A stretch of 64,000 nucleotides of DNA from Gelatoporia subvermispora B (Eukaryota > Basidiomycota > Agaricomycetes > Polyporales > Gelatoporiaceae), in NCBI GenBank assembly GCA_000320605.2, contig KB445791.1:2834802-2898801 (forward strand), in the 5' to 3' direction. Under the pieces are notes generated by a model, which was not told the origin of the DNA, searched no databases, and was given only the letters and a program-made list of their open reading frames with translations. This document shows, one piece after another, positions 7,901-53,209 of this stretch (the stretch's first letter is position 1; each line of letters begins with the position of its first letter). A program made the position numbers and the translations under genes.

Positions 7901-10900
7901 CATCAACAAGGCGATAGAACTGTATGGTTCTTCCGTCGCATTTAGTCGCGAAACGTCAGAAGTTGCTCTCAAACAGTCCTCGAAGACCCCGTCGAGGCGT
8001 CTGCATGCATCCCATAAGACGTCCCGGTCTCTTTCGAAAGGACAGCCGGTTGGAAACGCTCACGTGCTGGTTTCGAAAGAACAGGTAAGCCAGCCCTCGA
8101 TAACGCCGGAACATTGATCTGATATGGGCTACACAGTTCAAGGCTTCGTTCGAGGGTCTGCGTCTTGTGCTTATTGGCGACTTACATGAACAACCCTTGC
8201 TGCACTTCAAGGTTAGACCATTTAGCGTGGAGGCTCGGGATTGGTCTAGTGCGGTTCGTAATCTGTTCTAGGGGCGCTCTCGTCCTGACAAGTAGTAGCT
8301 ATTGGCAACATCAAGCCTGACGGCACAAATCACCTATTGGAACCTCTCCAACTCGCACTGGGAACCTCGTGAGTCACATCTACTTAGCGATCAACAATGA
8401 TAATTGACATTGGCCCTAGTGATCGATCCATGGACGTTCGCACTTATCGTAAGCTAGTACCACGCGTTTGTTCCTTGTGACTGCTGACACTGCAACAGGT
8501 TTCCAAGCAAAGTCCCACTGCGGGCTTGTCCATGACATTGTCGGCACAGGAGCGACTAGACCTTAACGTGACAACGGTTTTCGTGGAGCTGGCCCTCGCC
8601 ACCGCCAGAATGTTCGGCAAAGAGGGTGACCACGTTCTGCGCAAGGCCCGTGGAAGTTACGCACCATATCGGATACGCAATCGTACGGGATCCAGTGTCT
8701 ACGTTTGGTCTGACGTGGAGGGCACAAACCATACCACGGATGCAACCGCTGTGCAAGTTGCTCACAATAAGACCATCGATTGGAGGTTCGATGACTGGAA
8801 GACGACACGGGAGGTCAGTTCCATATCAGTTCCACAAGTTTCGCTCATAACCATGCACGATGTACTCACCGATATCTAGCACGTATCATCAAGTGGGCAT
8901 AACAGCATTGGTTTGCAGATCATCGGAAAGCCTTGGGAACACATCAGGAGCATTCCGGTGGATAGAGAAGGGGACTTCGCGTTCACCCTTCGCCCGAAGT
9001 CCGAAAAGTACGCCCATCGTCTGTTGTGCGAAGTCACTGTACAAGACAACGTCAAGATTGTCACGCTACGCTCTACTTACAAAGTCGAAAATTCAACTTT
9101 GTATCCTTTGGAATTGACGCTTGTGGATGCTTCGGGTCAGCCGGTACAAGCGGTGGAGAAGATTGGTACGTTTGTCATCACACTGTACAGTCAGCGGTGT
9201 ACTGAAGAGCCAACAGCGCCTGGACATGATTATGCACTTCCGATCGATGCGGTGGGCCAATACAGAGTCAGGATACAGCCAGACCGTGAGTTACCAGTTC
9301 CATCTGACCGGACTACTTATCGAATGGATCCTCCAGAGGGTTTCGGTTACCGATGGTCCAGTGCGATTCGCTGGGAGGATGTAGTCGCGAAGCGGCGATT
9401 CACGATCAAATGTCCACATACTGATCCAAACGAGTCCGCCTTTAGATTCCAAGCGTCTGTCGAGACTGATGTCAGTGACGTTAACTCTGCGTAAGTCAGT
9501 TTGTGATGTGGTCTTCCTGAATATGATATCAAGCTCGATATGACTAGAAAATATCCGAAGATCTCTCTCAAACTGCGGGCTCCCCTAGAATTGGAGAATC
9601 TCTTGCCGTATAACTTGAAATACCGGATTTACGACAAGAACTCGGATCAGAATTGGCGAAGCTATCTCCGCCAAGGAGGAATCATGCCTGTACACTCAGT
9701 CGAGCTGGGCCACCTCGTTCTTCTCAACATTCAGATCGAGGATTCCGGTATGTGATTCGCAAATCACGAGAGCTGCTTGATACTGATTGGCGTCCAGTAT
9801 TCAAGCCGAGCGATTTCGCTATCATCAACACTGATGGAAATTCAGATTTCGATGTGGAGAATAGTCTTATCCTGAGGGATGCTTCAGATCGTAAATTGGA
9901 ATTGAAGTTGAACTATGTGTAAGCATGGCATCTCATTTTGATGCCTTATCTCATGGGGTTGCAGTCGATATCCCAACACGGGAGGCTCGTTCAAAGTCCA
10001 GATCTACTGCCCTTATCTCATAGTCAACAAGACGGGCCTACCGTTTGCTGTCCGCCCTTCACGATCTACGCGCATAGGAACCCCTTCGGATGTAGCAGGA
10101 GATACGCGGCCAGGTACGAGGTACTTAAACTTCATACAGCGTCTCCATTCTTACTTATCACCTGTTAGATGTTTTGTCCAGCAGAACGCCATTCAGTAAG
10201 TCTTCAGCTCCCTCACATACTTAGTTGACTCAATGCCTTACCAACAGTGCTATCGCACTCTGAGCGAGGGAGTGGTTTCAATTTCAAAGTGGGCGAATCC
10301 ATGTGGTCACAGGTACTTCCTATCATCTAAATAGCATACAAGTGACTTATCAGCCCGTACCCAGGATGTGAGCTTCGAGGCCCCCGCTGCTGATACACGA
10401 CTCGCAATGCCGTCTCAAGCTCGACGCACCGAAGCGATTCAAATTGGCCTGTCATGGTCGGAAGGGCTTGGGAAGTACAAACTCACGAAAGTCATCACCT
10501 TGGCGCCTAGATTCATGGTGAAGAATGACTTGCCTCGGCCAATCGCTTTCCGTGAACATGGCGTCGCGCCGAAAGGCCGTTCCACCCTGGGCCCAGGGGA
10601 GCGATGTCCCTTGCACTTCATCAAATCTGGAGACGAAACATTATTGACCTTCGCATTCCCCGGCCTTAATGCGCAGTGGTATGTTCATCACCTATGTAAC
10701 TATCTGATCTCACGGAGTATGTTCTATAGGTCCACGCCTATCAATGTGGAAGATATCGGTTCAGTTCATCTACGCTTGCATTCGGGCGAGGAACGGTCTT
10801 CAGTGTACCTTGTCCGCGCGGACATCAAGTTGGGTGGATCAACAGTTTTCGTTACGTTATCGGAAGCAGGGGAAGGCTGGCCACTCTCGATTGAGAACGA

Positions 10901-13724
10901 CAGCGATTACTCCTTTACTTTCTACCAGGCAGTCAGTGGATCTCTTTAGTAACGGACTGTGTGAATGTCTGATAAACTTCACAGGATCAGTCTAATCCCG
11001 AGGTTCAAGCTCCGGGAAAATCCCTCCCAAGTTACACGGTAGATAAAAAATCCGCCGTTGACTATGCATGGGATTATCCCGCTGCAAGAGACAAGAAGAT
11101 TGTGCTGACCATCAACGGAGCTCGCCGTGCCGTAGATATTATGGAGATAGGCGACTTGATGCCTTTCAAGTTCTCGGTTCGTAGTCATCTCGCCTTGTCG
11201 TGTATTCTGGGTTTGACTTATTCGAACAGGACCAACAGGGACTCCGTGTGGTATCGCTTGACGTTCGGGCCGAGGCTCACAAACAAGTGCTACGCATCAC
11301 CAACTACAACCCAGAGCATAGTCTATATAAGCCAAGGCACAGGAGTTCGACATCTCTATCCAGGCGCGACTCCGTGAACAGTAGCCAGGATGCATTTGAG
11401 GTTGTACAAGAAGAAGTGCCTCCATCCCTGATCGTTTCCCTGGCGCTAGAAGGGATTGGTCTCTCCTTGCTAAACAGGAAGCTCGTTGAAGTGGTGTACT
11501 TGTCCGCTAACGGCCTCAAGCTCGAATATTCCAGCAGTCCCATATCACAGGCGATAGAAGTAACATGTCAAAATCTCCAAGTCGACAACCAGCTCCACGA
11601 CGCTCTCTTCCCTGTCGTTCTCCAGCCCACACCATTGTCTACCGATTCTACCAATGTCGCATCTTTACCTACCATACAGGTCTCCATGATCTGGTTGACC
11701 GACCAAGGTCGGTAGTGAGCTGCTCATTTGCGCAACATGCCCATTAACCCTTGGACAGAGCACGGCGTCTTCTTTGTCAAATACTGTTCGATCCTTCTCC
11801 AGGCGCTGACCATAGAGGCGGATGAAGACTTCCTATTAGCTGTGTATGACCTTACGAAGATCAAGGGCGCCTCCTGGGATGAAGAACATGACGAGTTAAG
11901 CCCTTTTGCTTGTAATTTATCACGCGCTCAGATGAGGATATAGTATACTGGTTCAACATCCCGACGACATACCCGAGCCCCAGGATACCGCTAGTGGACA
12001 GGATTTCTATTTCGAAGTCTTGGAATTACAGCCAATCAAGCTGTCTATGTCATTCATGCGCACAGAGAGGACCAACAGTGACGAGAAGTGAGGATTCCTC
12101 TCAGTGTTAGCAATGAATCCACTGACTCCGTGTAGGCTCAGCATCCGGAACCCGTTCGCTGTGGTGATCAACGCTATTACTATGGCGGTTGGCAATATCA
12201 ACGATGCCTCATTGGAGATGAATGCATTAGCAATCAAAGACATGAGGTTGACGCTACCTGATTTGCAAGATCGAATCATGCATCACTATCGTCAGGAGGT
12301 GCTACGACAGCTGTACCGTATTCTTGGATCCGCAGATTTTATCGGTAACCCAGTGGGACTGTTCACGAATGTCAGTTCTGGTGTTGCCGACATATTCTAT
12401 GAGCCCTTCAACGGTGTTGTGATGCATGGAAATAGGGACATAGGTGCCGGGATTGCCAAGGCAAGTGGCAGCATTTATGTTGTCGTCCTCATCATGTGCT
12501 AAACGTCTTTGCAGGGTGCAGCAAGTTTTGTCAAGAAGACGGTCTTTGGTTTCTCAGATAGTTTCACGAAGTTCACAAGCAGTGTTGGGAAAGGTAGTAA
12601 TCCAGATTCTAGAGTGTTTGACTTGCTCATGAAGGTCTAGGACTATCCGCAACAACGTTTGATGCTGAGTACCAATTACGACGGCGGATGAATCAGAGAC
12701 GCAACAAGCCAAGACACGCGATGTGAGTGGGTTGGCAGCCTATGTTGTAAACGCGCTAACATCATTTCCCAGCTATGGCGTGACTGCCGGAGCTGAGGCA
12801 TTTGCAAGTAGTGTGGTTAGCGGAGTGGAAGGAGTAGTGGTATGTTGCAATGGAAGTACGGTGGGCATCATGCGCTAAACCAAACTGTCAGATGAAACCT
12901 CTGGAGGGTGCTGAGTCAGAAGGCGCCAAGGGATTCTTCAAGGGCGTAGGGAAGGGCCTGATCGGGTACGTCTTTATGTGATTATGCAAATCCGGTTCAA
13001 TATACTGAATACTATCCAGTGTCGTGACCAAACCTGTAGTCGGAGTATTCGATCTTGCATCTAATCTCAGCGAAGGTATTTCATTTGTCCTTGTCACGGA
13101 TTGATTCGCTCAATTGCTCCAAGGAATTCGCAATACTACGACAGTCTTTGATAACCCTGCAAGGGATCGTGTTCGGCCGGTACGTGTGTCAGTGATTCTC
13201 AATGCAGATGATCCTGACCCAAGGCTCTGTGAAGCCGCGTCTCATACCGGCTGATGGTGTCCTAGTCGTAGGTCTTCGGTTATCTTGCTCAAAACACGTT
13301 TAACGCATTAGCCACAGCCATATTCGGAGCGCGAAGCACTGGGTCAGTACTGGATGAAAGATCTGGAGCAAGGTCGCTACCGTAACGAGCAATACGTCGC
13401 GCACATCAGTATGTACACTTTTCGGCACCTCTTGCAGGTTCTCACGTCGTTCCAGATTTACCGGGCGGAGACAACGTTGTACTGTTGACAACTTCCAAAA
13501 TCCTGTCCTTCTGGTCCAACAAGCTTAGACTGGAGTGGGAGCTACCTTTCACTCAGGTTCAGGGTGTTACCATCGAAGATACTGGCATCAAATTCGCACA
13601 CAAGATGGGCAAGGAATACGACAAGTTCGTATACATACCGGACAAGGGGTCTCAGTCGTGGTTCTTCTCTCAGATTGCATCAGTGGTGAAGGCATACAAC
13701 GCCAGGAGGCGGATGGACACGTAG
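1962..13724 (+). CDS. VPS13: VPS13-family bridge-like lipid transfer protein
   Basis: A giant protein (over 3,000 residues, many short introns) that moves lipids in bulk between membranes at contact sites. The start at 1962 (MVWWTDPGKEVLNI) joins through a GTATGC intron to LFNRVLAPYVENLDMNQVNY, the chorein N-terminal helix and lipid groove. KFRLPVDVVEG, IEDVYLLVVP, KIINNLQITVRNIHVRYED and FTLSLHW are typical chorein-N blocks. Between about 8.6 and 10.95 kb lie six repeats of the VPS13 adaptor-binding domain, each with the conserved Asn: RNRTG, VENST, ENLLP, VNKTG, KNDLP and IENDSD. The C-terminal third has the ATG2_C-like Gly-rich helices (GVTAGAEAF, GFFKGVGKGLIG, TKPVVGVFDLAS) and a PH-like end with VLLTTSKILSF, ending in NARRRMDT. 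All domains are present, so the gene looks functional. One intron (2261-2318) appears to use a GC donor. Confidence 0.96.
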
Positions 13725-31149: not shown

Positions 31150-32487
31150 ATGTCGTCCGCTCTCGCGAAATACGAGTCCTTCCTTGTTGAGAATGTCTCT
31201 ACCATATCCACCCTCGAGTCGACTCTCAGGTCCATTACGTGGATCTTACCGGGCAGGCTGAAGGATGGAGAATTGGCCTCTGAATCTCGTTAGTTGTTTC
31301 CTACGTTACCCGTTCTGCGCCCCTGTTTCTCGGTAGACCTCTAATGCAATGTCTGTTAACCGTAGTTTCCGCTGGCCTGAACGTGATGAGCATGTACCAT
31401 GACACGCTCCTTGCTAGATACTTGCAAGGCGTCCCAAAGTATAAGCCATTGCTTCCGTCATCGCCACATGCCAAGTACACCAGGGCATGGTGTGAGAAGA
31501 GTGCCGTCTACAAGTGGGCTGCGCGCGTCCTCGAGCTCATCCGCTTCACACAATTGTTGATCGAGATGGGTCTCCGGCGGAAGGCGTCGCCTCGCACGCG
31601 ATGGAGAGGCATCGTGTTACTTGAGGTCATCAAGTAAGGCCCCACTCTCCCTCCCGACAAAGTTTATAGGCTCATCTTGCCCTCATAGGGCCGGCTTGCG
31701 CCTGCTTCTCCTTCGCATCACACGGAGACCACTCTTGTCGCCGCCAATTCCCGAGCGCGAGTTCGACCCCTCTTCCTTACCTGCTGCATCGGATACCTCG
31801 TCACCCACGCTTGCTCCTTCATCCCCGCCTACCTCCCTCCCCTCTACCCCCGAACACCTCAAGAATAACCATGTGCCGCTCCCCGTGCACCCCTTGTTCA
31901 CCCTTCCGCCGCCGGCACAATCAGTTGAGTCGGTCGAGGATTACCTCTTGACGAAGGCCCTTACCACGGCGGACGTCAAGTCACCCACAGCTCTTGTCAA
32001 GCCCTTGACAACGCCGAAGGACTGGATTTCGGAAGGCATCTATACCTTACGTCCCCTGGCCTATGGTATGCAGCTTCAGCTACATTGGTCATCGCAAGCC
32101 GTTGACTCTACATTGCTTAGCTGTCCTTTTGTCATCCACGAGAGGCGAGGATTCCGATCGGGCTATCATGGGTGCCCTTGCACTTGAGGTTCTATCTCGG
32201 AACCTTCGGCGTACCCCGCTATCGGCCTCCGCGCTCGAGCGCTCCGAATACGCCAAGCGGGACAGAGACATGCTCTGGTACCTGCTCCGCGGTTCTATCT
32301 GGCGGTCATGGACACGTCCGAAGTTGGAGGCATTTGCGAACACGACCGCTCGTGTGCCGTTGCTCAACGTCTTCGGCGCGCTCATGCAGGATTGGATCCC
32401 GCTCATCGACGAGTACTATTATTGTGCGTACACTCGTTGGCCAAAAGGTGCAGATACTGATTACTTTTTCCAGATACGGCACCTTAG
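31150..32487 (+). CDS. PEX16: Peroxisomal membrane protein PEX16
   Basis: Peroxin-16 takes part in the insertion of peroxisomal membrane proteins and in peroxisome formation from the ER. The start is MSSALAKYESFLVENVSTIS followed by TLESTLRSITWILPGRL, the classic Pex16 N-terminus. MSMYHDTLLARYLQ, YTRAWCEKSAVYKWAARVLE and RTRWRGIVLLEVIKAGLRL follow. The middle has a Pro/Ser-rich insertion, then WISEGIYTLRPLAYAVLLSS and the conserved C-terminal block (RDRDMLWYLLRGSIWRSWTR, NVFGALMQDWIPLIDEYYYY). The last intron (32424-32473) splits the tyrosine run, and the protein ends YYYYTAP with a stop at 32485-32487. Introns are short and canonical, and the length is normal for the family. It is not part of an obvious cluster. 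Confidence 0.93.
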
Positions 32488-34196: not shown

Positions 34197-36366
34197 ATGT
34201 CTCTCTTGGCTTCAGTATCTCAGCTGACCGCGGTGTTGGCACTCTGTGCTTTCGCTTACATGTACTTGAAGCGGTCTCAAACTCGATATGCGTCTCTTCC
34301 GCCTGGTCCTCGGGGAAGCTGGCCTTTCGGTATCAGAAAGAGCATCGCAGGTCCATAGTAAGAGATTTAGCTGCATTCCTGCGAATTCTACTCAATGAAA
34401 ATACCAGTTTACCTAGGATCTACGAAACGTTATGCCAAGAATATGGACCGGTATTCACTGTGAAGCAAGGAAATGATCTCACAGTCGTTATAGGCAGATA
34501 TGAGGTCAATTTCTTCGCTCATCTAACATCCGCGTTCATCTCTGACAAGGTTTCTGTAGGCTGCCGTCGAAATTATGGGCGGACATTCGGCCGACCTGAT
34601 CGATCGCCCTCGCGCTGTTGCAGCGCAAGAGATCATGTGTCAAAACAACTCTCTTATCCTTGCAACTGGAAAGGAGCAAGTTCGAAAGCTTAGGACGTGA
34701 GCCTACCGGATTAATCTCGTATATCATCACTTCACTTTTAACATCTTCGTGGTAGTGCGACCCACAATGCCACACAGCCTCGTATTGCTGCGACCTACGA
34801 GCCCCACCAAATCAAGGGTGCCAAGCAGCACATACTAGATATCTTGGAGGACCCAGGAAATCAACTGGAACATGCGAAACGGTACGATTGGGAATCATTC
34901 CGCTGCTCGACACTCAATAACTTTTCCAACACCTCGCCACCATCAGATATGCGGCGAGTTTGATCATGGAAGTGACATTCGGCAAAACCACGCCCACATC
35001 CTATTCAGACCCGGAGGTGAAAGCGATCAAGAATGTCGCGGCTAACTTCAGCGGCGCTTTGCTTCCAGGCAAATACCTTGTCAATTCTTTCCCTGTCCTC
35101 AAGCATATCCCATTCTTCGTTTCTGAGCTCAAGAAGATGCATATGCACGAGATTTCCCTGTATCGGAGACTTCTGGGAGCGGTCAAGGAAAGCATGGTAA
35201 GCTGATCTCTATTGATTATACGTTTCCGCAGAACTCACTGGTGATTGTCGGTATACAGGACAAAGGAGAGGCGCGGTCGTCCTTTGGGACATACCTCCTC
35301 GAGAATCAATCCAGACTGGGACTCACAGAAGGTGAGATGGTGTATCTGACGGGAGACATGTTCATCGCTGGATCCGATACTGTAAGTGTTTCGCCCTTGT
35401 ATTTGGCATCCGTGGTACTCATCAATCTGTGCAGACTTCCGCGGCTCTTGGTGTTGTGTCTATGGCTGCCGCCTGTTATCCTGAAGCTCAGGCACGGGTG
35501 CAAGCTCAGTTGGACGAAGTCGTTGGTCGAAACAGGAGTGAGTTACCTAGTCGGCATTCGTTCGGGGCCAAACTGAATACCACACACAGTCCCTACGTTC
35601 GATGATCGTAAGTTGTTAACTGAAGTCGAGGCATTTGTTCTAGAGGTGTTCCGCTGGAGACCTGCCGCCGTTCTCGGTAAGTATCACTGGAAAGATCGTA
35701 ATAATTCGAGACCCAAATTACTTGAATTCTCATGACTGCATTTGCACAGGATTCGCTCACAAGGCCACCAAGGACATCGTCTGGGTATGCACACAATCTG
35801 ACAATCGGACATGTCTATTGACTATCTGTCAGCGTGACTACGTGATTCCCGCCGGAACGTCGGTGCTAGGATGCCATTGGTGAGAGCACTCAAACTTGGT
35901 GTCACTGACCTTTATATAATATCCTGCACAAGGGCTATCTCACGGGACCCTGAAGTCTTTCCTGAGCCGGAGGTATTTAAGCCGCAAAGGTGGTTGGATA
36001 ACAACGGCAGTATTAGAAACGATGTCAAATTTCAAAACTTCGGTTTTGGCCGCAGGTCAGATGCACTGTGTCACACTGTTCGAATTGCTTTTGACAATTC
36101 CTCAGGGTGTGTCCTGGGCAGCCCATTGCAGAGAGGTGTGTGGCATAAATATCAGGCTTGCATATCGCTTACATTGTGCTGTTAGGTCCCTATTCATCAA
36201 CTGTGCTTTGATTCTCTGGGCGTTTGACATCTCTCAAGTCCCCGGCAAACCCATAGACACGTATGCATTAGCTGACACCATTATCACGCAACCCCTTCCG
36301 TTTGCAGCTCACTACAAGCGTCGTATTCCCAATCTCGAGGAAGTGATTGCTGCTCACCAGGATTGA
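34197..36366 (+). CDS. Cytochrome P450 monooxygenase
   Basis: A microsomal heme monooxygenase. The N-terminus MSLLASVSQLTAVLALCAFA is a membrane anchor followed by the Pro-rich hinge LPPGPRG. A 50-bp intron (34358-34407, donor GTAAGA) leads into LPRIYETLCQEYGPVF. The I-helix oxygen-binding motif AGSDTTSAALG is formed across an intron. The K-helix ExxR lies in LEVFRWRP, and the PERF-like region is PEVFKPQRW. The heme-binding loop FGFGRRVCPGQPIAER is complete only after splicing: an intron falls between the second Arg and Val. Helix L then continues SLFINCALILWAFDI. All key residues are present, so an active enzyme is likely. The substrate is unknown. It begins the block P450, KARI-like, SDR, cupin. 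Confidence 0.92.
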
Positions 36367-38023
36367 AGTACTAGGATTTGTCGTAGTTCGAGTGGTCTCG
36401 GTCATGTATTCCTCTCAGCCCGACCCTAGTTCGGTCTTCGTCTTCGAGTGTTGTCCGTGGCTCCATTGTTCGCCGAAATTTGCCGATCATGTATTCCCTC
36501 CAGAAAACCAAATGCGCGCTCCAATTTCACCCAATATGTCTGACCTCGCGATTTCGTTTGGGTTCATTGGCGCAGTGCTTAGGGTCAAATATATGTGGGC
36601 GCTCGTGGGAAAAGTCCTGTAACTGTGACTATCTACCGCCAGTCAACCCACTTGGCTCACACAGCCCGTAATCGATAAACCAGATCACACTTAGGAAGTC
36701 TTCTAAGTTCCTTTTCTCAGCCCCGTACGTTGCCAAGGCTGTATCACATTATCGCTTTTGTGTACCATAATTACTAGTGTCCGACATACAATGTCAAAGC
36801 AGTGGCGCCTTCTAAGGCCTCCCTTCAGTCGATTGCTGCGCGTCTTGAAGAGCATCGTAAACAGACACTTTTGCCATTGTCACCTCCTCATTCTAAACCC
36901 CCCGCTTTCTGTGGATGGCCCACGTTTCGTCCGTCACCATGTCCATCGCGTCCTGTTTCAGCCCAGAGAGGGCCGAGTGATGACCCCAATCCCCGCAACC
37001 CGATCATTGTCTTCCAGATGACCTCCATACCTTTCGCAGATATTGTGTGCGCTTGCGACGTTAGCGGCCCGTTGAGACTTTTGATGAGCGTGATTGCTGC
37101 ATACGCAATCTAGAACCCGTGAGTAACTGCAGTCTGCGCGACTATTGTGTCAGGAGGGAGTGGCTTCTTTCGCTCGTTTTGGAGGATGGTCGCAGAGGTG
37201 GTGATACCGCATGTCTAGAAAAGGTGATTACACTTATGCTACGGAAGATATAGCAGTGCTTGCCTGGGAAATGTATGCAAAAAGGCGAAAAATGCAAGAG
37301 CCGTAGCGACAGCAGCGAAGTCGAGGGTGCTGAGAAAGTTCGATGGGACAATGGCGACGAAGGAGAGCTCAAATGCACAGCTCTTCTCGATTTCAGCCTT
37401 GCATGATGGGGGCTCCGAGACGAATTCTTGTCGACGCCTTGAGGAATCTGCCGACGCCGAGTATACTTCGTCCTGCGGTATAAGAATACAGAGAATGCAG
37501 ACATTGCGAATTGTGATACGACGACGTTTTATATGATCCCGCATGTTAGCGATCGTGTAGGTGTCGAAGCAGAAGCCAAGGAAACTGGATCACTCTTCGC
37601 TTGAGCGCACTCCGGTATAGCGCTCCGATGACGAGGAAACTTGGGAGCGTGAGCAACGCTGCTCCGCTTTACTCGGAATATCCATACGCGGTTGCTTGTC
37701 GCCGCAAGCGTCGATCGGCCGGCCAATTCTGGACTGTTGTGCCTCGGGCGTCCAATCACAAGTGGCCGAATCGCGCCACCGGAAAGTTCGAAAGATATAT
37801 TGATTGGCTGCTTGAGGGGGAAGGGCCTCCCGAGATCGCTGTGGATTAGGATGTTCACGGCGCATCAGGCCTCAGGGCGCATCTGATACGTTGCTTGCCA
37901 CAAGTTCTACTGCTCGTCGCGTCCGCACGATTGCCAGTAAGGAGGCGGAAAACGGATTCATCATCGTTGGTTGGTAAAGTGATACATGACGGATTCTATA
38001 CAGCTTGCAATCGGTTCCGACTC
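36367..38023. other. Intergenic region, unresolved reverse-strand fragments
   Basis: Between the P450 and the KARI-like gene. On the reverse strand around 37540-37690 there is a hydrophobic stretch (LLTLPSFLVIGALYR), and around 37240-37540 another (FAAVATALAFFAFLHTF). They could be pieces of a decayed membrane protein. No start, splice chain or family assignment could be made. Confidence 0.4.
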
Positions 38024-39484
38024 TCACACTAGGCCTGCGAGTCGTGCCCTCACCCTCTTCTCTGCCTGCGCCAGTTCCATACTCTCTGACCTTTTGTACA
38101 ACACATTGAGAGGGTTGGCGTCACCCTCTTTCTCGAGGTCCTCCTCAATCTGGCTGAATTCGCTACAGAATTTGCCATTCAACACCTACGGGATTTTGAG
38201 TCACTGGATTCGACGGAGTACGTTATAGATGACGCACCTGATTGTAAAGAATCTGTTTGAATTGCTCCCGGGTAGCAGCACCGTCGAGCGCCAGTGCACC
38301 GCTCAGCTGGCCGAATTGGGACACGGTCGAATGATGCTTCAGCTACATAGATAGTCAGCTGCCACATCACCGGGATCATCTAGTGACATGCCTGGTCCAC
38401 GAAGCCATCCTCGGCCGCCCTTTCGAAGATTTCTGCAGGCTCCTTGGACATCCACCTGATGTACGTGAGACCAGGTCGACCACTGAGATCGCCGAAATTA
38501 GCTCACATCTCGTAGCACAAAGCCTCGTCAGAGCAGCCAGCCTCTTTCAGTACACTGAATGCCTCGCTGTATAATCGAACATCTCAGCACGTCAGCACGT
38601 CAAGGTACATACATCAGATGACTGAAGCTTACCGGAATAGCACGATGATATTGGGCCACAAAGCCTGTTCTGCAAAGAGATCCATCATAGTCTCCTCCTT
38701 GGCTGATGATGCTATCGCCCCTGCCCGTGTAGCTCCGATAGCACGCGAAAGTGATAGAGCGATCGGCAGAGCTTGCCCCGTCCCATCCTGCTCCGCCGAG
38801 ACAAAACACGGAAAGCCCTTTCCCTTTACATAAAGGCTTCGGACAGAAGACCCGATCATCCTGATGACCATCATATCATGAGTGGAAGTTGACGAAGGAG
38901 ACACATGAATATACCTCGGAGCAACCATGATCACATCTTGTGTCGCTTGGAAATTGAGTAACTTGAAGAAGACATTGTATCCGCTAGCAATCACCACAGC
39001 AGCCGTGGGCTTCAGGCGCGGTGCGACCTGCTCATTGAATACGCGAGGCTGGGCTTGGTCTGGGATTAGCAGAAATAGGACTATCACGTTAAGCGTTAGG
39101 GGCAATGTCATACAGGATGGTATAACAGTGCAGCATACCGTCAGCAACCTCCCCGGCCTTGCCAAAATCATGCTCGACTCTGAACCCCTTAGACTTGGCA
39201 TCCTCTGCATAAGCGTCGACTCGGTTGGCAATGAGTATATTCTCATTAGGGATGCCTGACTCTCGCAAATTCTGAGCCTGTGCGGCCCCCTGGTTGCCAA
39301 AACTAGGTATAATGCTCCATTAGGTAAAGCGATAGAATTTGAAGGACCGGCACACCCCAGGAAGACGATTGTCTTGTCGCTCAACAGTCCAAGATCAGCG
39401 TCAGCATCGTAATAGCTAGAATCAGTGTTAGCTCAGAAATATACGCCAGGGACACATCCCTGCGACTTACATCTTAGCAGACAT
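38024..39484 (-). CDS. Ketol-acid reductoisomerase-like protein, no mitochondrial presequence
   Basis: KARI (IlvC/Ilv5) converts acetolactate to dihydroxy-isovalerate in valine and isoleucine synthesis. The reverse-strand model starts MSAKIYYDADADLGLL, as in bacterial-type KARI, with no targeting peptide. The Rossmann motif GFGNQGAAQAQNLRESG is formed across an intron. Then follow FLLIPDQAQPRVFNEQ, VVIASGYNVFFKLL and DVIMVAPRMIGSSVRSL. The metal-ligand helix KEETMMDLFAEQ keeps the Asp and Glu. The C-terminal domain has KEPAEIFERAAEDGF and STVSQFGQLSGALALDG, and the protein ends RVRARLAGLV. Usual KARI has His in the HGFN block and Lys in APKGPGH; here these read ASGYN and APRMIGS. The reaction may therefore differ from normal KARI (inference). 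It lies between the P450 and the SDR. Confidence 0.85.
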
Positions 39485-39819
39485 CTTGCAGCTCGCGGTG
39501 AGTTTCCAAAGGGCTAACGTCGAGATGACCTGTGCCCTTTATGTGTGCATTGCGAGAACCCTCGTCCGGAATGAATGGTCCGCTCTTCGGTGCCCTCACC
39601 CGCGCCGTGAGCTCCAAAGTCTGTGAATTGTCAAACCAGGTCTCGAGCTTGCGTCCTAGTCGTGTCCCTGTGACACAGGAGCGGATCCAGCGGTCCGTTG
39701 GCCTTTGTCACCGAAGCGAAACCATGATCATGCGCCGAGTCCAAAATCAAGGCGCGGGTATGTCCTGGGGTATGAAATGAGCGCAGTGAATGCGAGATGG
39801 AAAGAGGACATCTCGAGGC

Positions 39820-40888
39820 ATGTCGCTGCTACAGGGCAAGGTCGTCTGCATCACTGGCGCGTCTCGCGGCATCGGTCGCGCGTGTGCGGTTGAATCCGCG
39901 AAGCAGGGCGCTAATGGCTTGATCTTGCACTTTCTGGGCGATGCAGAAACTCAAGCTGAGATAGACACCCTCAAACAAGATATTGAGGCCGGACATCCTG
40001 CGCGGATTGTAGCAGTCCCTGGTGACATAGCCAACGCAGCAACCTCCGAAAATGTGGGTATCTGCCAAGTGGGCGTGACGTATTCTGCTGTACATTCATT
40101 CAATTGGGATATCGAGCAGATTGTCGAAGAAGGTGTCAAGGCTTTTGGTCGCATAGGTGAGTATAACGTATAACTTGGGATGTGCATGCTGCGAACGACC
40201 TATGCCTTGAAATCTGCGTAGATGTTCTAGTCAGCAATGCCGGGATATGTCCGTTCGCTGAATTTCTCACTATGCCACATTCAACATGGGAGCGCACTCG
40301 TCAAGTAAACCTCGACGGGTCATTCTACATTGTACAAGGTATATTGAATTGCTTTCAGAACGTGAAACTGGTCTTGATGAAAGGATCAGCCGTTGCAAAC
40401 CAGATGAAGGTGCAGATGCCACAAGGAGGGTCAATTATCGGCATTTCTTCCATATCCGCTCTTGTAGGCGGCGAATTCCAGTGGTACAGCCTTTCGAATC
40501 GTTCTTAGCACACATTTGACACACTTTTACATGCAGTCATTACACTCCGACAAAGGCCGGCATACAATCTCTGATGCAAAGCTGCGCCGTTGCACTCGGA
40601 AAGTATCACATACGTGCAAATTCTATCTTGCCTGGCACAATCGCCACGGATATCAATAAGGAAGATTTGTCGGACACAGCCAAAAGAGAGTATATGGTCA
40701 AGCGCACCGTATTGGGACGACTTGGTGGTGTGTATTCTATGTGTGTTGCCTGTCGCTATCAATTGACGCCATCCCCAGATCCAGATGATATCGCAGGTCC
40801 AGTTGTGTTTCTCGCAAGTGACCTTGCAAAATATGTAACCGGAGCATCGCTCTTAGTAGATGGCGGCGCATTCGCTAATTTCCAATGA
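39820..40888 (+). CDS. Short-chain dehydrogenase/reductase (classical SDR)
   Basis: An NAD(P)(H)-dependent oxidoreductase. It starts MSLLQGKVVCITGASRGIGR, giving the cofactor motif TGASRGIG. DVLVSNAGICPFAEF carries the NAG motif. SIIGISSISALVGGEF gives the catalytic Ser. After an intron inside a Cys codon comes CHYTPTKAGIQSLMQS with the YxxxK pair. SILPGTIATDI and the C-terminal LASDLAKYVTGASLLVDGG are typical of 3-oxoacyl-ACP reductase/glucose dehydrogenase-like SDRs. Six exons with canonical short introns, and length close to the family norm of about 250-260 residues. It is divergent from the KARI-like gene, with about 335 bp between start codons, so the two may share a promoter. Confidence 0.92.
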
Positions 40889-40959
40889 ATCATCTGATCA
40901 TATACTGTTACAAAACGCATGTTCTCGTAGTCATCCCTATGTCGATCATCATGATGCGA

Positions 40960-41704
40960 TCACATTCTCATCTCTGCCTCCAGGGTCTTACCGCCCACGA
41001 CGACGGGCTTCGCATCAACGACGACGGTAGCCCACCTGGTCCAGTCGGGACCCGGGTTGTTCCAGGAGTGAATCGTGCCCCTCTGGATGACCAGGTCTCC
41101 AGGAGTTTCGAGCAACCTTTGCACGCCGCCGTCCAGGGTGACGAGCAGCTTCCCACTGACTGCACGATGGGTATGGTCTTTAGTGTCAAATTCCAGGGGA
41201 CAATACCAATTTGGCAACGTACCGAGAATGTTGTAATCCAAAGATGAAGTCCGATGCTATCGCAACATATGAGCTCTGCAGCGGTTTGATGAAGTGCCGC
41301 TAATCTTACCATAGCAATGCTCGCACCAGGAGCAAGGTCCGTGTAGCGCAAGCTTGTCCCGTCCTTCATGACAAGGCCGAAATCACCATTCGGGGTTTTA
41401 GAGTTCCCATCGGTGCTGACATCGATTGAGCATTTTACGAAGAATGACCAACAGTACCACAATCACTCACCTCTCATTGTTGTCGTTCGTCGGAGTTGCA
41501 TGCGTGTTCCACGGCGTCTCGCTGTTAACTCCTGGCCATCCGTCGGCGGGCTGTAGGAGCAGTCTCTGTGTATCTAAACCATGCTATTTCGGAGAATAAG
41601 CACCGTACCTTGGGCAGAAGAGTGTCTTCAGTCTGGAAAATCGGGACACCAGCCTCGGTGTGGCCAGTCACAAGTCGGCGCACGGCAGGAAGAGGTGAGG
41701 TCAT
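40960..41704 (-). CDS. Small cupin-domain protein
   Basis: The reverse-strand model starts MTSPLPAVRRLVTGHTEAG (41704), followed by a short variable part (PADGWPGVNSETPWNTH). GLVMKDGTSLRYTDLAPGAS leads into the cupin barrel. A tiny exon supplies MHRTSSLDYNIL, then VSGKLLVTLDGGVQRLL, ETPGDLVIQRGTIHSWNNPG and WATVVVDAKPVVVGGK follow. The two cupin motifs are recognisable: HRT...LDY in the first and PGD...QRGTIHSW in the second, so a metal site is possible. Relatives are small fungal cupins of unknown or varied function, some encoded in biosynthetic clusters. It converges on the SDR with about 70 bp between stop codons. Confidence 0.85.
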
Positions 41705-43080: not shown

Positions 43081-45318
43081 CTAACGTTTACCTCCAGTGA
43101 TGATGCCGCGCAACCATGCCCATCGTTGCCGAGCGGGTTGATGATTTGAGGTTGGGAGTAGACTGTCCTGCTCTCCATGGGGCAGATCTCCGTCGCTGTA
43201 GGCAGCTGGGAGTTGGGGGAGCCTGCCGGCAGAGCTCGCTCCCAGCGCACCATCGCTGACCACCCTTCTTCTTCCTCCTTCCACGTCACCGTTCAGCCTC
43301 CGTGCTTCTCGGACAGGATCACTGTCGGTGCTCGTGCCGTTTCGGAGTAGTCCACCTCCTGTGAGCCGCCGCCGCCTGTCCCTGGGCACGAGGACGAATC
43401 CGGGGCTGACTGGTGAGAGCCCAATCGAGAAGCCTGCACCAAAATTAGATGGGCCAGGGGAAAGCGGATTAGGGAAGGGATGTGGTTCGTCGGAGAGGCC
43501 AGCAGCCGCGAGGGTTGTCCGACGTCGTGAGATACTGCTCCGGCTTGGGCGGTTTGTGACAGTATCTGGAACATACGCGGTCTGAGAGCGGCGAGTCCGA
43601 CTACCGAATAAGGCACTATCCGTCTGCAATCGGGGGTGGGCAGAACGGGGCGATGGCGCTGGTGTCGAAATGCATGGGGACGAGATCGGTCCCGGGGGCT
43701 CAGTAACGATGCAGAGATCGGGAATGGAGTCGAAATGGAAGCGGCCGTTTCGCTTGACTACCGCGCCAGAAGGCTCACCACTGGGGCCATGCATAGGAAG
43801 CGGCTCATCTTCATACATCTCTATCTCCTGCTCTTCATCGTCTTCGGTGGGACTCGTGACTGAACCCACGTCCATCTCTAGATGCTCGCCTGAGATGCCC
43901 TCATCTTCTGCCCATGGTCCAACGTCGATGCCACCCCCTATGGATGGGAAGCTCACGACCCATACACCAGCAAGAAGAACAGTGATTCCAAGAATCACCA
44001 TCCAGAGCTGAAGTGTAGATAGGGCCGAGAACTGGTCGAAGTATACAAGTCCATTCAGGATGGAGGAAAGATTATAGAAACAGAATGCCACTATTTCCAA
44101 CGGATATGAAATCATGGACGTGCAAGAAACTGGAGCCAAACTTACGCGGGCATATCAACGTAGGATCTGCAAGGACGAGACTCTTGTGCATGTACCACAA
44201 TTGTAGCAAGGCACAGACAGCTAAGGCAAGAACTAGCACCCATGCTTGCCATCTCCAGAATTGGTTGTCTCCGCCAAAAGTGAGGACAAGAAGCTCGACG
44301 CCACTTTTGGCGAATAGCAGACACATTCCTGAGATAATGCCAGAGGATGAGGCGTAAGAGGCGGCGAGGATTACAGGGGTGGAATTAGAGTTGACGAAAG
44401 AGAAAATGGAGCGAGAAGTGCTGGATTCGTCCGAATCCGATAGTGGTGATCTGGATCTCTTGACTACAGGCAGCTTGCGATCCAGAAGCGGTGTGCGTTC
44501 GGTCGCAATCTCGGGATTCGCGGATGATGTGGTGACCGCGGTAGTCAGGATAGTTGGCGCAGTGGTCGGTGCGATTAACGGAGAGAGAGGCGGGGACGCA
44601 GAGGGCAATGCTATTCGCCGTACGTAGTAGTATTCTGCTACATGAGTCTGGAAGGGATGAGATTCGGAAGGTACAGAGGCCGTCTGGAAACTTACGATTC
44701 CGAGGCATACAACGACGACGAAGGCAAGCAACGAAAAGTAGACCACAAAAGTAGGTCTATTGAAAAGTCGAAGCAGGTCCTCAAGAGAGTGTGTAGGTTC
44801 AGCAACGATACCGAAGATCCCAATCAGGACAGCACCCCCCGCAATGAGTAGGGTGCCGATGATCATCCAAGGGGAGAAGACGTCTCCAAGCAGTATGCGT
44901 GCGAAGAAGGCATTCCACAGAAGAGATACCGCCCCAAGAGGCGCTAGAATGACGACAGGCAGAGATGCGATCTGGAAAATTGAGCCAAACAGGTTCGAGG
45001 AAATGAAGATGCCTGCAGTGTTGTCACTTCAGGAGGTCTCTAGACCTTCGCAGGGCGACGAACGTACCAAATCCTAGCAACCACAGGCTGAACCGATGTC
45101 AGACCATGCATCAGTATATAAGAATGACATGCTGCTCACGGCCTTCGATACTCCGCCTTCCTCTCGCCCTCCGGCAACGCATGGTTCAATACATGACTCT
45201 TCCGCTGGATGGTCAGACCAAGGGACTGTATGAATGATGCGAGGAGGCCTATGGCAATTCCGAGAGGAATAGAGATCTGGGTGCCACTTTCCGTCGAGAT
45301 ACGTGATGATATGGCCAT
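43081..45318 (-). CDS. NIPA-type magnesium transporter (DUF803), multi-pass membrane protein
   Basis: NIPA proteins are drug/metabolite-transporter-fold carriers linked to Mg2+ uptake. The start MAISSRISTESGTQISIPLG leads into IGLLASFIQSLGLTIQRKSH, the first membrane helix. The highly typical NIPA block follows: WLLGFGIFISSNLFGSIFQ, ASLPVVILAPLGAVSLLWNA and FFARILLGDVFSPWMIIGTL. More helices are VVYFSLLAFVVVVCLGIVSF, YASSSGIISGMCLLFAKSGV, WRWQAWVLVLALAVCALLQL and TLQLWMVILGITVLLAGVW. An insertion of about 90 residues separates helices 4 and 5. The long C-terminal tail is Ser/Pro-rich and disordered with an acidic patch (TEDDEEQEIEMYEDE), ending RGIITGGKR. It shares a 440-bp upstream region with the divergent RBM39 homologue. 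Confidence 0.9.
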
Positions 45319-51651: not shown

Positions 51652-53209
51652 ATGCCGCTCCAGCCGCAGCAGACTCGCACTCCCTACCATATCAGCGGCA
51701 GGGCCGATGAACAGGCCCTCGTCGACGAGTTCAAGGGCAAGCCGCTCACGGCCCTCAGAACCCCTGCCCTGATCATCGACCGTGCCATATTTGCACGGAA
51801 CTGTGCCCAGATGCACGAGCGAGCTAAATGCTGGGGTGCGAGTTTCCGCGCTCATGTCAAATCCCATAAAGTACGTCATGGAATATGACACCGTCGTTGC
51901 ACCAGCCCTGAAAATTGATTTGTAGACTGCTGAGGGTACGAGGCTGCAACTGTCCTCGAGCGCAGACACCACACATGCCATCGTCGTGTCGACTATAATG
52001 GAGGCGTGCGAGGTCCTCAGGGCTGGTCTACTAGTGGACGGAATGGTGAACGACGTGCGTATCTATCATTCACCGGTCAAGATAACAACCGTTGACCAAT
52101 GGCTGTATCACCGATAGATCCTCTACGGATTGCCGCTCGCTCTGAACAAAGTTGCAGACCTTTCGGCGCTATGGGACCAGTGTACACCGTTCAACTGCCA
52201 CTTCCGTGTCCTCATCGACCACCCGGAGCAAATCCGCTTCGTCGAGGCCTGGGAACAGCAGCGCGGATCGAAGCGTCGCTGGTCCGTCTTCATCAAGGTC
52301 GATTGCGGGTTGAAGTGCGCAACATCCTCCGTTGCTGACTTGACGATGAGTGACCGTGCTCGGCAGGCGCGCAGGGCTCCAGCCCGCCGACCCTATATTT
52401 GAAGAGCTTCTGCACAAAGCGCTCACGTCCACATTCATCTGCGTGTACGGCTTTTATACCCACGGCGGACACTCATACTCGGCGACCTCCCTGCCCTCCG
52501 CTACCGCCTTCCTCTCAAAAGAGCTTGACGCGGTCAACACCGCGGCAGGCCGGGCACTGCAGATCCTCGCGAGCTCGCCAGATGCGCAGGCGCACGAGAG
52601 CCCGTTCGTCCTGGCGATCGGGTCCACGCCCACGGCGCACGCGGTCACGCCGGAGGCGCGGGAGTTCCTGTCGAGTCTGAACGGGCGACTAGAGATACAT
52701 GCGGGTACGTAAACATGAACGACGTTCCGGCCGCTCCTGCTACATGCGTATCAGGTAATTATCCGCTGCTGGACCTCCAAATGCTGCACACGGGGCTCGT
52801 CGGCGCGGGGTCCGTCGCGCAGCGCGTGCTCGCGACGATCATCTCGTACTACCCCGGGCGCGGCGAGGACGGCACGGACGAGGCCATGTGCGACGCGGGC
52901 GCGATCGCGATGAGCAAGGAGACGGGCCCGATCGAGGGGTATGGGATGGTGGTGGACAAGCCGTGGCGCCTGAGCCGCATCTCGCAGGAGCACGGCATCC
53001 TGACGCAGACGCGGCTGTTCACGCGCGAGGAGATGGAGGGGAAGGAGGGCAAGGGCCCCCGCCTGAAGATTGGCGACAATGTGTCGATATTCTGCCAGCA
53101 CGCGTGTCTGACGCTGGCCAACTTCCCGTGGTACTATGTTGTAGATTCGGATGGCCCAGATGGAGCGAAGAATGTGTGTAGTGTATGGGTGCCGTGGAAA
53201 GGTTGGTAA
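51652..53209 (+). CDS. D-serine dehydratase-like / D-threonine aldolase-type PLP enzyme
   Basis: A fold-type III PLP enzyme with a Zn2+ site, related to yeast Dsd1 (D-serine to pyruvate and ammonia). It starts MPLQPQQTRTPYHISGR; LRTPALIIDRAIFARNCAQM begins the alanine-racemase-like barrel. The PLP lysine is in AHVKSHKTAEGTRLQL (intron after HK). VDCGGRAGLQPADP is read across an intron with a GTTGAA donor. FYTHGGHSY and AIGSTPTAHA follow, then EIHAGNYPLLDLQML. The C-terminal domain has CQHACLTLANFPWYYVVDSD, where the His-Cys pair is the zinc-ligand pair of Dsd1, and the protein ends VWVPWKGW. All expected key residues are present. A hAT element sits about 100 bp upstream, and its 3' end is duplicated at 56.5 kb. 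Confidence 0.88.

Follow-up and report, generated by a model that had tools for sequence, protein, structure and literature searches.

The L-rhamnose catabolism of Scheffersomyces stipitis and Aspergillus niger, in which the first dehydrogenase is encoded within a small linked group of genes (the LRA cluster), is among the described systems closest to the locus presented here. According to the available part of PMC12028159, the A. niger enzyme, LraA, is highly specific. Less is in place for two polypores, P. chrysosporium and D. squalens: the accessible text of PMC9781776 gives orthologues for rhamnose steps 1 and 4 and none for steps 2 and 3, with those of LrlA and LrdA missing. The same text describes poor growth of both species on L-rhamnose, and a P. 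chrysosporium proteome in which sugar-inducing patterns were not obvious except for galacturonate. A comparable series of reactions is the D-apiose route, which employs dehydrogenase, lactonase, oxidoisomerase, kinase and decarboxylase enzymes in the excerpt of PMC11747546 available. The third point of reference is ketol-acid reductoisomerase (KARI), whose Mg2+ ligands in Sac-KARI are D191, E195, E227 and E231 (PMC5940873, in the section available).

The window (the whole 64,000-nucleotide stretch analysed, from contig C1 of Gelatoporia subvermispora) contains a block of four complete genes, for which we built spliced models:

34197-36366, + strand: P450, 13 exons, 499 aa, heme motif FGFGRRVCPG
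39484-38024, - strand: KARI-like protein of the APRM clade, 9 exons (39484-39471, 39415-39356, 39302-39139, 39080-38915, 38860-38633, 38566-38507, 38455-38392, 38342-38238, 38185-38024), 340 aa
39485-39819, no strand: KARI-like/SDR intergenic stretch, start codons 335 bp apart, possible shared promoter
39820-40888, + strand: SDR of the L-rhamnose 1-dehydrogenase (Lra1/LraA) type, 6 exons (39820-40053, 40120-40156, 40222-40338, 40390-40483, 40537-40727, 40779-40888), 260 aa, TGASRGIG and YTPTKAG motifs
41704-40960, - strand: small cupin, 5 exons (41704-41609, 41550-41471, 41415-41310, 41256-41223, 41159-40960), 171 aa

These models, together with domain and fold matches, bear out the preliminary description of four complete neighbouring genes within 7.5 kb. 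The orientations that it gave are also correct: the KARI-like and SDR genes diverge from the 335-bp stretch, and the SDR and cupin genes converge, with stop codons 71 bp apart. The P450 and KARI-like genes likewise converge. Annotated G. subvermispora proteins match the SDR and cupin models at 100% identity, and an Obba rivulosa protein aligns with the whole KARI-like model (340 aa) at 91% identity; one intron of the KARI-like gene is GC-AG (GC donor after exon 38455-38392) and all the others are GT-AG. The genes flanking the block are housekeeping-like. Rfam and tRNA scans of the whole window gave no matches, and no PKS, NRPS or terpene synthase was found among the 30 other window ORFs covered by a non-exhaustive scan.

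Three of the genes appear to be an old linked trio in Agaricomycetes: the KARI-like gene, the SDR that diverges from it and the cupin that converges with the SDR. We inferred linkage in other fungi from locus tags and from contigs of identical length. In 43 of the 46 species named in both match lists (expected, 2.4-3.2), the contigs that carry the KARI-like and SDR genes are equal in length; the same is true of the SDR and cupin for 16 of 17 species, and of the KARI-like gene and cupin for 15 of 17. Different strains or assemblies stand behind the two entries in the exceptions. Serial locus tags, where readable for both the KARI-like gene and the SDR, are consecutive in all seven species (Cerrena, Paramarasmius, Coniferiporia, Dentipellis fragilis, Stygiomarasmius and two Marasmius). 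Metagenome contigs of 1304, 3204 and 4130 bp each have a length common to an SDR and a cupin from one source, a type of match that can mislead for very short contigs, as with KARI P0099 and cupin P0277, both on 1178 bp, which cannot share a contig. Among the best 120 matches of each, identity is 69-91% for Agaricomycete KARI-like proteins and 69-87% for the SDR outside G. subvermispora itself, and these homologues span many Agaricomycete orders; the patchy distribution expected of a natural-product cluster was not seen for either. Thus, of the four genes whose synteny in related agaricomycetes the preliminary description had suggested checking, three appear to travel together. The fourth, the P450 (Pfam p450, 253.6 bits), is probably a chance neighbour outside the conserved module. 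Within the genome it is most closely related to copies in tandem on C13 (754-762 kb), with one more near 730 kb, and to a copy on C3 (1.09 Mb); most exons are 60-78% identical between them and the window gene, and some 42-57%.

Family assignment makes the SDR an Lra1-type enzyme (L-rhamnose 1-dehydrogenase), and activity on L-rhamnose is predicted. It carries an adh_short_C2 domain (Pfam, 193.8 bits), and its best NCBIfam model is NF053807, L-rhamnose 1-dehydrogenase Lra1, at 379.3 bits, which is under the curated cut-off of 400. The second model is another L-rhamnose dehydrogenase (247.6 bits) and the third scores 194.4, so that Lra1 leads the top-scoring model for anything else than L-rhamnose dehydrogenase by about 185 bits. 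The best PDB match, 7b81/7do5, reaches 302 bits, and the next 157. Three of the SDR homologues listed bear the name L-rhamnose dehydrogenase, and the next best match within the genome is 31% identical. The genome also holds two MR_MLE genes that, from the one exon of each compared, resemble L-fuconate dehydratase/ENOSF1 and D-galactonate dehydratase.

The KARI-like protein is, on alignment and tree, a member of a distinct "APRM" clade, nearest to actinobacterial proteins. It passes both Pfam thresholds (KARI_N, 158.5 bits with a cut-off of 20.6; KARI_C, 84.4 with 29.1) and misses all the NCBIfam KARI cut-offs (224/336, 179.7/226.15, 159.1/406 and 84.6/713 bits). A predicted model of its Obba orthologue (pLDDT 94.7) matches KARI folds. 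The KARI set of Mg2+ ligands is present as judged from sequence: D195, E199, E230 and E236 are invariant in both alignments (A1 and A3), E236 being assigned by reading the alignment, after a two-residue insertion. The HS..SQ.G serine region of KARI is conserved as well. The histidine of AHGFN and the lysine of APKGPG have roles in KARI isomerisation, and these are replaced by serine and arginine in nearly all of the 120 homologues listed: ASGYN occurs in 120 and APRM in 119, the single exception being without that stretch, and APKGPG in none. In a tree whose canonical rows do not include fungal Ilv5, the KARI-like proteins fall outside the 15 bacterial and archaeal canonical rows sampled (support 100/100), and the fungal ones join nine actinobacterial rows (100/99). 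The clade occurs in Actinomycetota, Acidobacteriota and archaea; its fungal members are named acetohydroxy-acid reductoisomerase in public records. A search of IMG/VR for contigs with the KARI-like gene returned 88 pattern matches, with no relative among them. We also set aside a role as stand-in for the ketopantoate reductase PAN5, since the genome has an ApbA/PAN5-type match at C1:2416431.

The protein could in principle be a cytosolic second KARI, acting in branched-chain amino acid synthesis or on a related acetohydroxy acid, with its linkage to the SDR reflecting a shared promoter and no shared pathway. Complete KARI domains and fold, the retained Mg2+ ligands and the serine region would all fit, and the nearest solved relative was deposited as a KARI, so activity on acetolactate may persist despite the altered residues. 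Because the alignment shows no N-terminal extension beyond prokaryotic KARIs, the protein is probably cytosolic, again as this explanation would have it. We nevertheless think it unlikely. At C16:683978-685104 the genome has a further KARI gene, with stronger domain matches, which is taken to be Ilv5, the main KARI; and the missed NCBIfam cut-offs, the histidine and lysine replacements and the place of some bacterial members in acid-sugar operons, with another KARI relative in all five bacterial genomes checked, argue against a role in amino acid synthesis.

The prokaryotic neighbourhoods give a mixed picture. Sugar or acid-sugar genes adjoin the KARI-like gene in six bacterial genomes. In two Acidobacteriota genomes it lies beside an SDR and genes for a GH106 alpha-L-rhamnosidase and a RhaT-family transporter, the bacterial RhaT protein scoring under the NCBIfam RhaT cut-offs (250/369 bits); in a third, an SDR, a Gfo/Idh/MocA protein, a member of the MR_MLE dehydratase family and a 2-hydroxyacid dehydrogenase are near. 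In the Pseudonocardia acaciae family, 16 genomes have the KARI-like gene; a DUF1537 kinase and PdxA accompany it in three of them, one of these also with an IlvD/EDD dehydratase and a DHDPS-type aldolase, and the pair is missing in the other 13. A DUF305-type gene, its family named from one locus, is adjoining or one gene off in nine of these 16. Most bacterial APRM loci showed no sugar genes, which counts against a sugar-catabolic role. The one Vulcanisaeta locus scanned has heme and tRNA-synthetase genes, and an AHGYN-type member (L041) adjoins a TPP enzyme, as in ilv operons. The fungal SDR has only 33-34% identity with the SDRs from the two rhamnose loci of bacteria, and Lra1 was not among the 25 best families for the one bacterial SDR scanned. 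Across the ORFs of 74 prokaryotic KARI loci, the fungal SDR found matches in six loci (24-36% identity), and the cupin and P450 found none.

The family evidence, the sugar neighbourhoods of some bacterial members and the linkage lead us to read the trio as sugar or sugar-acid catabolic. We propose that it oxidises a sugar, most likely L-rhamnose. Going by its family, the SDR would oxidise C1 of the aldose to give a lactone. Opening of the lactone would then yield the aldonate, a 2,3-dihydroxy acid, and the cupin may carry out this opening or a later step. The KARI-like protein, with NAD(P)+ and two Mg2+ held by D195, E199, E230 and E236, would oxidise the C2 hydroxyl of the aldonate, the KARI redox step in its reverse direction. 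This oxidation may or may not be coupled to a ketol shift that yields a 3-oxo acid, and the product would be cleaved or decarboxylated. The earlier idea of a KARI-like enzyme with a keto-acid-like substrate is plausible, in that the protein may act on a keto-acid or hydroxy-acid beside a dehydrogenase. That the trio is an old linked sugar-catabolic module of Agaricomycetes, with the P450 probably there by chance, is the reading we prefer, and we give it an even chance. The poor growth of P. chrysosporium and D. squalens on L-rhamnose, and the P. chrysosporium proteome pattern noted above, weigh against this reading, as far as the available text of PMC9781776 goes. More tentatively, the trio may represent an undescribed mushroom route for the breakdown of L-rhamnose, or of some other deoxy or branched sugar from plants. 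A small cupin and an oxidoisomerase of the KARI superfamily, the latter acquired from an actinobacterium-like donor, would there take the place of the ascomycete lactonase and dehydratase.

A related explanation is that the trio degrades a different sugar (such as D-apiose, L-fucose, L-lyxose or an acid sugar), with a dehydrogenase, a lactonase and an oxidoisomerase working like D-apionate oxidoisomerase. Apionate has a tertiary C3 hydroxyl, as does the true KARI product. The DUF1537 kinase and PdxA next to some bacterial members point the same way, as does the enzyme set of the D-apiose route in the excerpt of PMC11747546. Both of the SDR's best NCBIfam models are L-rhamnose dehydrogenases, however, the first far ahead of other kinds, and the high specificity given for A. 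niger LraA in the available part of PMC12028159 also speaks for rhamnose; we regard a different sugar as rather improbable.

The preliminary description had instead raised the possibility of a cluster of an unusual type. All four genes, the P450 included, would then form a specialised-metabolite cluster, and the KARI-like enzyme would have been taken over from primary metabolism like BurG. In favour of this, the genes sit within 7.5 kb, the cupin resembles fungal StrC, and the KARI-like fold matches include BurG structures (titled as cyclopropanol-ring biosynthesis in bacterial toxins), which imply that natural-product pathways can recruit relatives of KARI. We nevertheless consider such a cluster very unlikely: conservation of the KARI-like and SDR genes is broad, unlike that of patchy natural-product genes, the 30 ORFs scanned hold no core enzyme, the P450 has close tandem relatives elsewhere, the flanks are housekeeping-like, and what the families indicate is catabolism of a sugar or sugar acid.

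The sugar-catabolic module, if real, would address the published gap at rhamnose steps 2 and 3 in two polypores (PMC9781776, available text), for which the trio offers candidates in basidiomycetes. It would also mean that the fold of a textbook enzyme of amino acid synthesis serves carbon catabolism in major wood and litter decayers, and would supply a functional hypothesis for the APRM clade of Actinomycetota, Acidobacteriota and archaea. Among the open-literature papers listed, none described a KARI that takes part in the breakdown of sugars, which is no proof of absence from print, and their titles and abstracts gave no link between a KARI and a fungal cupin gene cluster or a rhamnose gene cluster.

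The Cupin_2 match of the cupin is just below cut-off (Pfam, 25.0 versus 27.2 bits), and its predicted model (pLDDT 96.5) matches solved cupins. The two closest, StrC of Stachybotrys (8x0u) and 3es1 of Novosphingobium, which is titled as of unknown function, share its single-domain cupin fold, with TM scores of 0.80-0.84 (normalised by query) and 27-33% identity. We found no account of the pathway or role of StrC in the open literature; its place among these model-based relatives may count against a sugar module. The KARI-like protein resembles class I KARI in its two Pfam domains, its fold and its Mg2+-ligand Asp/Glu set, but differs in falling below the NCBIfam cut-offs, in its separate clade, in the His to Ser and Lys to Arg replacements and, in fungi, in its Lra1-type SDR partner. 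Its closest solved relative by sequence, Sso-KARI (6jcv, Saccharolobus solfataricus; class I IlvC, EC 1.1.1.86), has in common with it the ASGYN, APRM and HHST motifs and the two-residue insertion before the last Glu. The proposed pathway shares with those of D-apionate oxidoisomerase and DUF1537 the logic of a sugar dehydrogenase, a lactone, an oxidation with ketol shift, a kinase and a decarboxylase, and DUF1537 does lie beside some bacterial APRM members; unlike the DUF1537 pathways, the locus has no DUF1537 kinase among the window genes examined, and the likeness to ApnO is one of logic, with no homology claimed. Finally, the SDR resembles Lra1/LraA (EC 1.1.1.173) in being a full-length SDR with classical motifs and NF053807 as top family, but scores below 400. 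As in the LRA clusters of S. stipitis and A. niger, an Lra1-type gene lies within a small linked group; unlike there, its immediate neighbours are the KARI-like and cupin genes in place of the LRA2 lactonase and LRA3 dehydratase.

The preliminary description had placed a P450, a ketol-acid-reductoisomerase (KARI)-like gene, an SDR and a small cupin side by side, and manual splicing and Pfam confirmed this observation, with its coordinates and orientation. Pfam matches fit all four names, that of Cupin_2 lying a little below cut-off.

The four genes, manually spliced (window positions)
34197-36366, + strand: P450, 13 exons
39484-38024, - strand: KARI-like gene, 9 exons
39820-40888, + strand: SDR, 6 exons
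41704-40960, - strand: cupin, 5 exons

The SDR and cupin models match Gelatoporia subvermispora B proteins at 100% identity. The reading frame after a GC-AG intron of the KARI-like gene (window 38391-38343, - strand) is backed by full-length alignment to Obba rivulosa. When 30 flanking ORFs were scanned, all those with a family match were housekeeping-like: VPS13, Pex16, a NIPA-type transporter, a D-serine dehydratase-like domain, a DEAD helicase and an RRM protein, with a weak CorA match besides. The window's contig in the 37.7 Mb assembly (contig C1 of genome G000) also holds an ApbA/ketopantoate-reductase-type match at G000:C1:2416431-2417015 (- strand).

Flanking features from the ORF family scan (window positions)
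~3600-11000, + strand: long VPS13-type gene
31561-32184: Pex16 exon
44075-45028: NIPA-type Mg transporter
52529-53206: D-serine dehydratase-like domain

Linkage in other fungi was inferred from an identical size of the longest contig and from the locus tag printed for each protein-search homologue, and was counted over species named in both homologue lists compared. It had been proposed to ask whether the four genes move together; the KARI-like gene, SDR and cupin do. The KARI-like gene and SDR lie on contigs of equal length in 43 of 46 species, SDR and cupin in 16 of 17, and KARI-like gene and cupin in 15 of 17, against chance expectations, for a 30-40 Mb genome, of 2.4-3.2, 1.0-1.3 and 1.0-1.3, respectively. 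Maxima in 200,000 simulations were 13, 8 and 9, and the observed counts were never reached. Species that depart from the pattern are Agaricus bisporus, Rhodofomes roseus, Postia placenta and Taiwanofungus camphoratus; names or tags show differing strains or assemblies in the first three and suggest them in Taiwanofungus. Serial locus tags could be read for the KARI-like gene as well as the SDR in seven species, and in all seven they are consecutive, leaving out one truncated tag and JGI-style protein ids, whose order may differ from gene order. All three genes share one contig in 11 species, and three short metagenome contig sizes are each common to an SDR and a cupin from the same source. Equal-length contigs, consecutive tags and shared metagenome contig sizes thus mark the three as, almost certainly, an old linked trio.

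The P450 is another matter. Its closest relatives in the genome, most of whose exons are 60-78% identical to it and some 42-57%, lie on two other contigs, C13 and C3, which suits a member of a dispersed family.

Closest P450 relatives in the genome, by exon identity
G000:C13:729611-762520: tandem array
G000:C3:1091280-1093430: single copy

What is left of the proposed four-gene cluster is a conserved trio, with the relevance of the P450 in doubt.

What might the trio do? The SDR's best NCBIfam model is the L-rhamnose 1-dehydrogenase Lra1 (379.3 bits, under the cut-off of 400), followed by another L-rhamnose dehydrogenase (247.6) and a different family (194.4). Against the PDB its top match scores 302 bits and the next 157; the top record states just SDR, and we take it to be a rhamnose dehydrogenase. 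Its next best match within its own genome reaches 31% identity. In the cupin, D101 and H136 are invariant and H95 nearly so, which suggests metal binding; its pathway step would be a guess.

Prokaryotic relatives that share the KARI-like protein's APRM motif were surveyed by neighbourhood. The Acidobacteriota (396 genomes) gave three matches at 1e-85 or better. Two loci contain, in order, an outer-membrane barrel, peptidase S15, RhaT-family transporter, KARI-like gene, possible MBL-fold hydrolase (23.7 bits; cut-off 22.7), SDR and GH106 alpha-L-rhamnosidase; one has an extra CstA transporter, and the second was annotated through 69-96% identity to the first. The third has an SDR, KARI-like gene, Gfo/Idh/MocA oxidoreductase, MR_MLE dehydratase-family protein, 2-hydroxyacid dehydrogenase and fumarase-type protein. 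The Pseudonocardia acaciae family (390 genomes) gave 16 matches at 1e-75 or better, and in three of these genomes the acid-sugar genes DUF1537 kinase and PdxA adjoin the KARI-like gene (families assigned with Pfam at one or two loci and by sequence clustering at the others). In P. acaciae the order on one strand is DeoR regulator, DUF1537, PdxA, KARI-like gene, IlvD/EDD dehydratase and DHDPS-type aldolase. The pair is absent in the other 13; in nine a DUF305-type gene adjoins the KARI-like gene or lies one gene off, and four have neither. Conserved neighbours at loci L131-L136 and L138-L140 are DUF305 (9 loci), DUF3105 (6) and two larger genes without a family (8 each), with no obvious link to sugar metabolism. 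One genome, G671, has two KARI-like copies (L127 and L141), one matched over its first half alone. No recognised sugar genes were among the ORFs scanned at the remaining APRM loci: Solirubrobacterales (citrate synthase, MFS, ornithine cyclodeaminase family), Acidimicrobiales (methionine synthase), Vulcanisaeta (porphobilinogen deaminase), Terriglobia (sodium symporter) and Binatia (pseudouridine synthase, histidine kinase). An AHGYN-type member, L041, has a TPP-enzyme gene next to it, an arrangement known from ilv operons, and a second KARI relative is present in all five bacterial genomes checked. The sugar reading thus rests on the sugar or acid-sugar neighbours in six genomes of two phyla, many others being uninformative. 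A sugar or sugar-acid role for the trio is probable, and its field is likely to be sugar catabolism rather than specialised metabolism.

A published account gives the ascomycete route as L-rhamnose, lactone, L-rhamnonate, 2-keto-3-deoxy-rhamnonate, then pyruvate plus L-lactaldehyde; it records step 1 and 4 orthologues as present and step 2 and 3 orthologues as absent in P. chrysosporium and D. squalens, and poor growth of both on L-rhamnose (PMC9781776). Two MR_MLE genes found in the Gelatoporia genome, each compared through a single exon, are like L-fuconate dehydratase/ENOSF1 and D-galactonate dehydratase, a resemblance that fits the gap at steps 2 and 3, and two weak HpcH_HpaI matches are candidate aldolases. 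L-rhamnose is a credible, still tentative, substrate. The KARI product is a 2,3-dihydroxy acid, as are aldonates such as L-rhamnonate; a KARI-type enzyme encoded beside a sugar dehydrogenase could reverse the usual redox step and oxidize C2, with the ketol shift optional. An oxidoisomerase and a kinase take part in a published D-apiose route (PMC11747546). That the KARI-like protein is a true oxidoisomerase is possible, though less likely than not.

A second KARI gene, on contig C16, has stronger domain matches and is taken to be Ilv5, the genome's main KARI. The window's protein has both KARI domains yet falls under all four NCBIfam KARI cut-offs; a model of its Obba orthologue (pLDDT 94.7), together with a fold search, gave a plain class I KARI fold. 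In a 56-row tree, midpoint rooted, with long branches flagged and without fungal Ilv5, 15 canonical KARI rows form one clade (100/100) and 20 fungal rows another (100/100), the latter joining nine actinobacterial rows (support of 100/99 at the joint node, but 93/74 for the nine by themselves). Besides Agaricomycetes, the fungal rows take in one member of the Pucciniomycotina, Meredithblackwellia, and Saitoella. The simple reading is gain from an actinobacterium-like donor, donor and direction being putative.

Invariant Mg2+ ligands and a Rossmann domain speak for a functional enzyme. Both the His and the Lys of canonical KARIs, which presumably serve in isomerisation, are gone, suggesting that this step is altered or absent. 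A third KARI-like type, in Acidobacteriota (L043, L042, L044, L045 and L052), has ASSYG, SPRAMG and NLFGEQ, with Asn replacing the first metal-ligand Asp; these five are the SPRAMG loci of the bacterial and archaeal set, and L043 has a sodium symporter gene 3-5 kb downstream. APRM and a two-residue insertion before the last Glu ligand are common to the window's protein, the Saccharolobus solfataricus KARI and the bacterial and archaeal set; ASGYN marks the window's protein and most of the APRM set, some having AHGYN or LSGYN. Among the homologues listed, ASGYN occurs in 120 of 120 and APRM in 119. Canonical KARIs have SHGFN, APKGPG or similar, and S[ND]TAE at the corresponding places.
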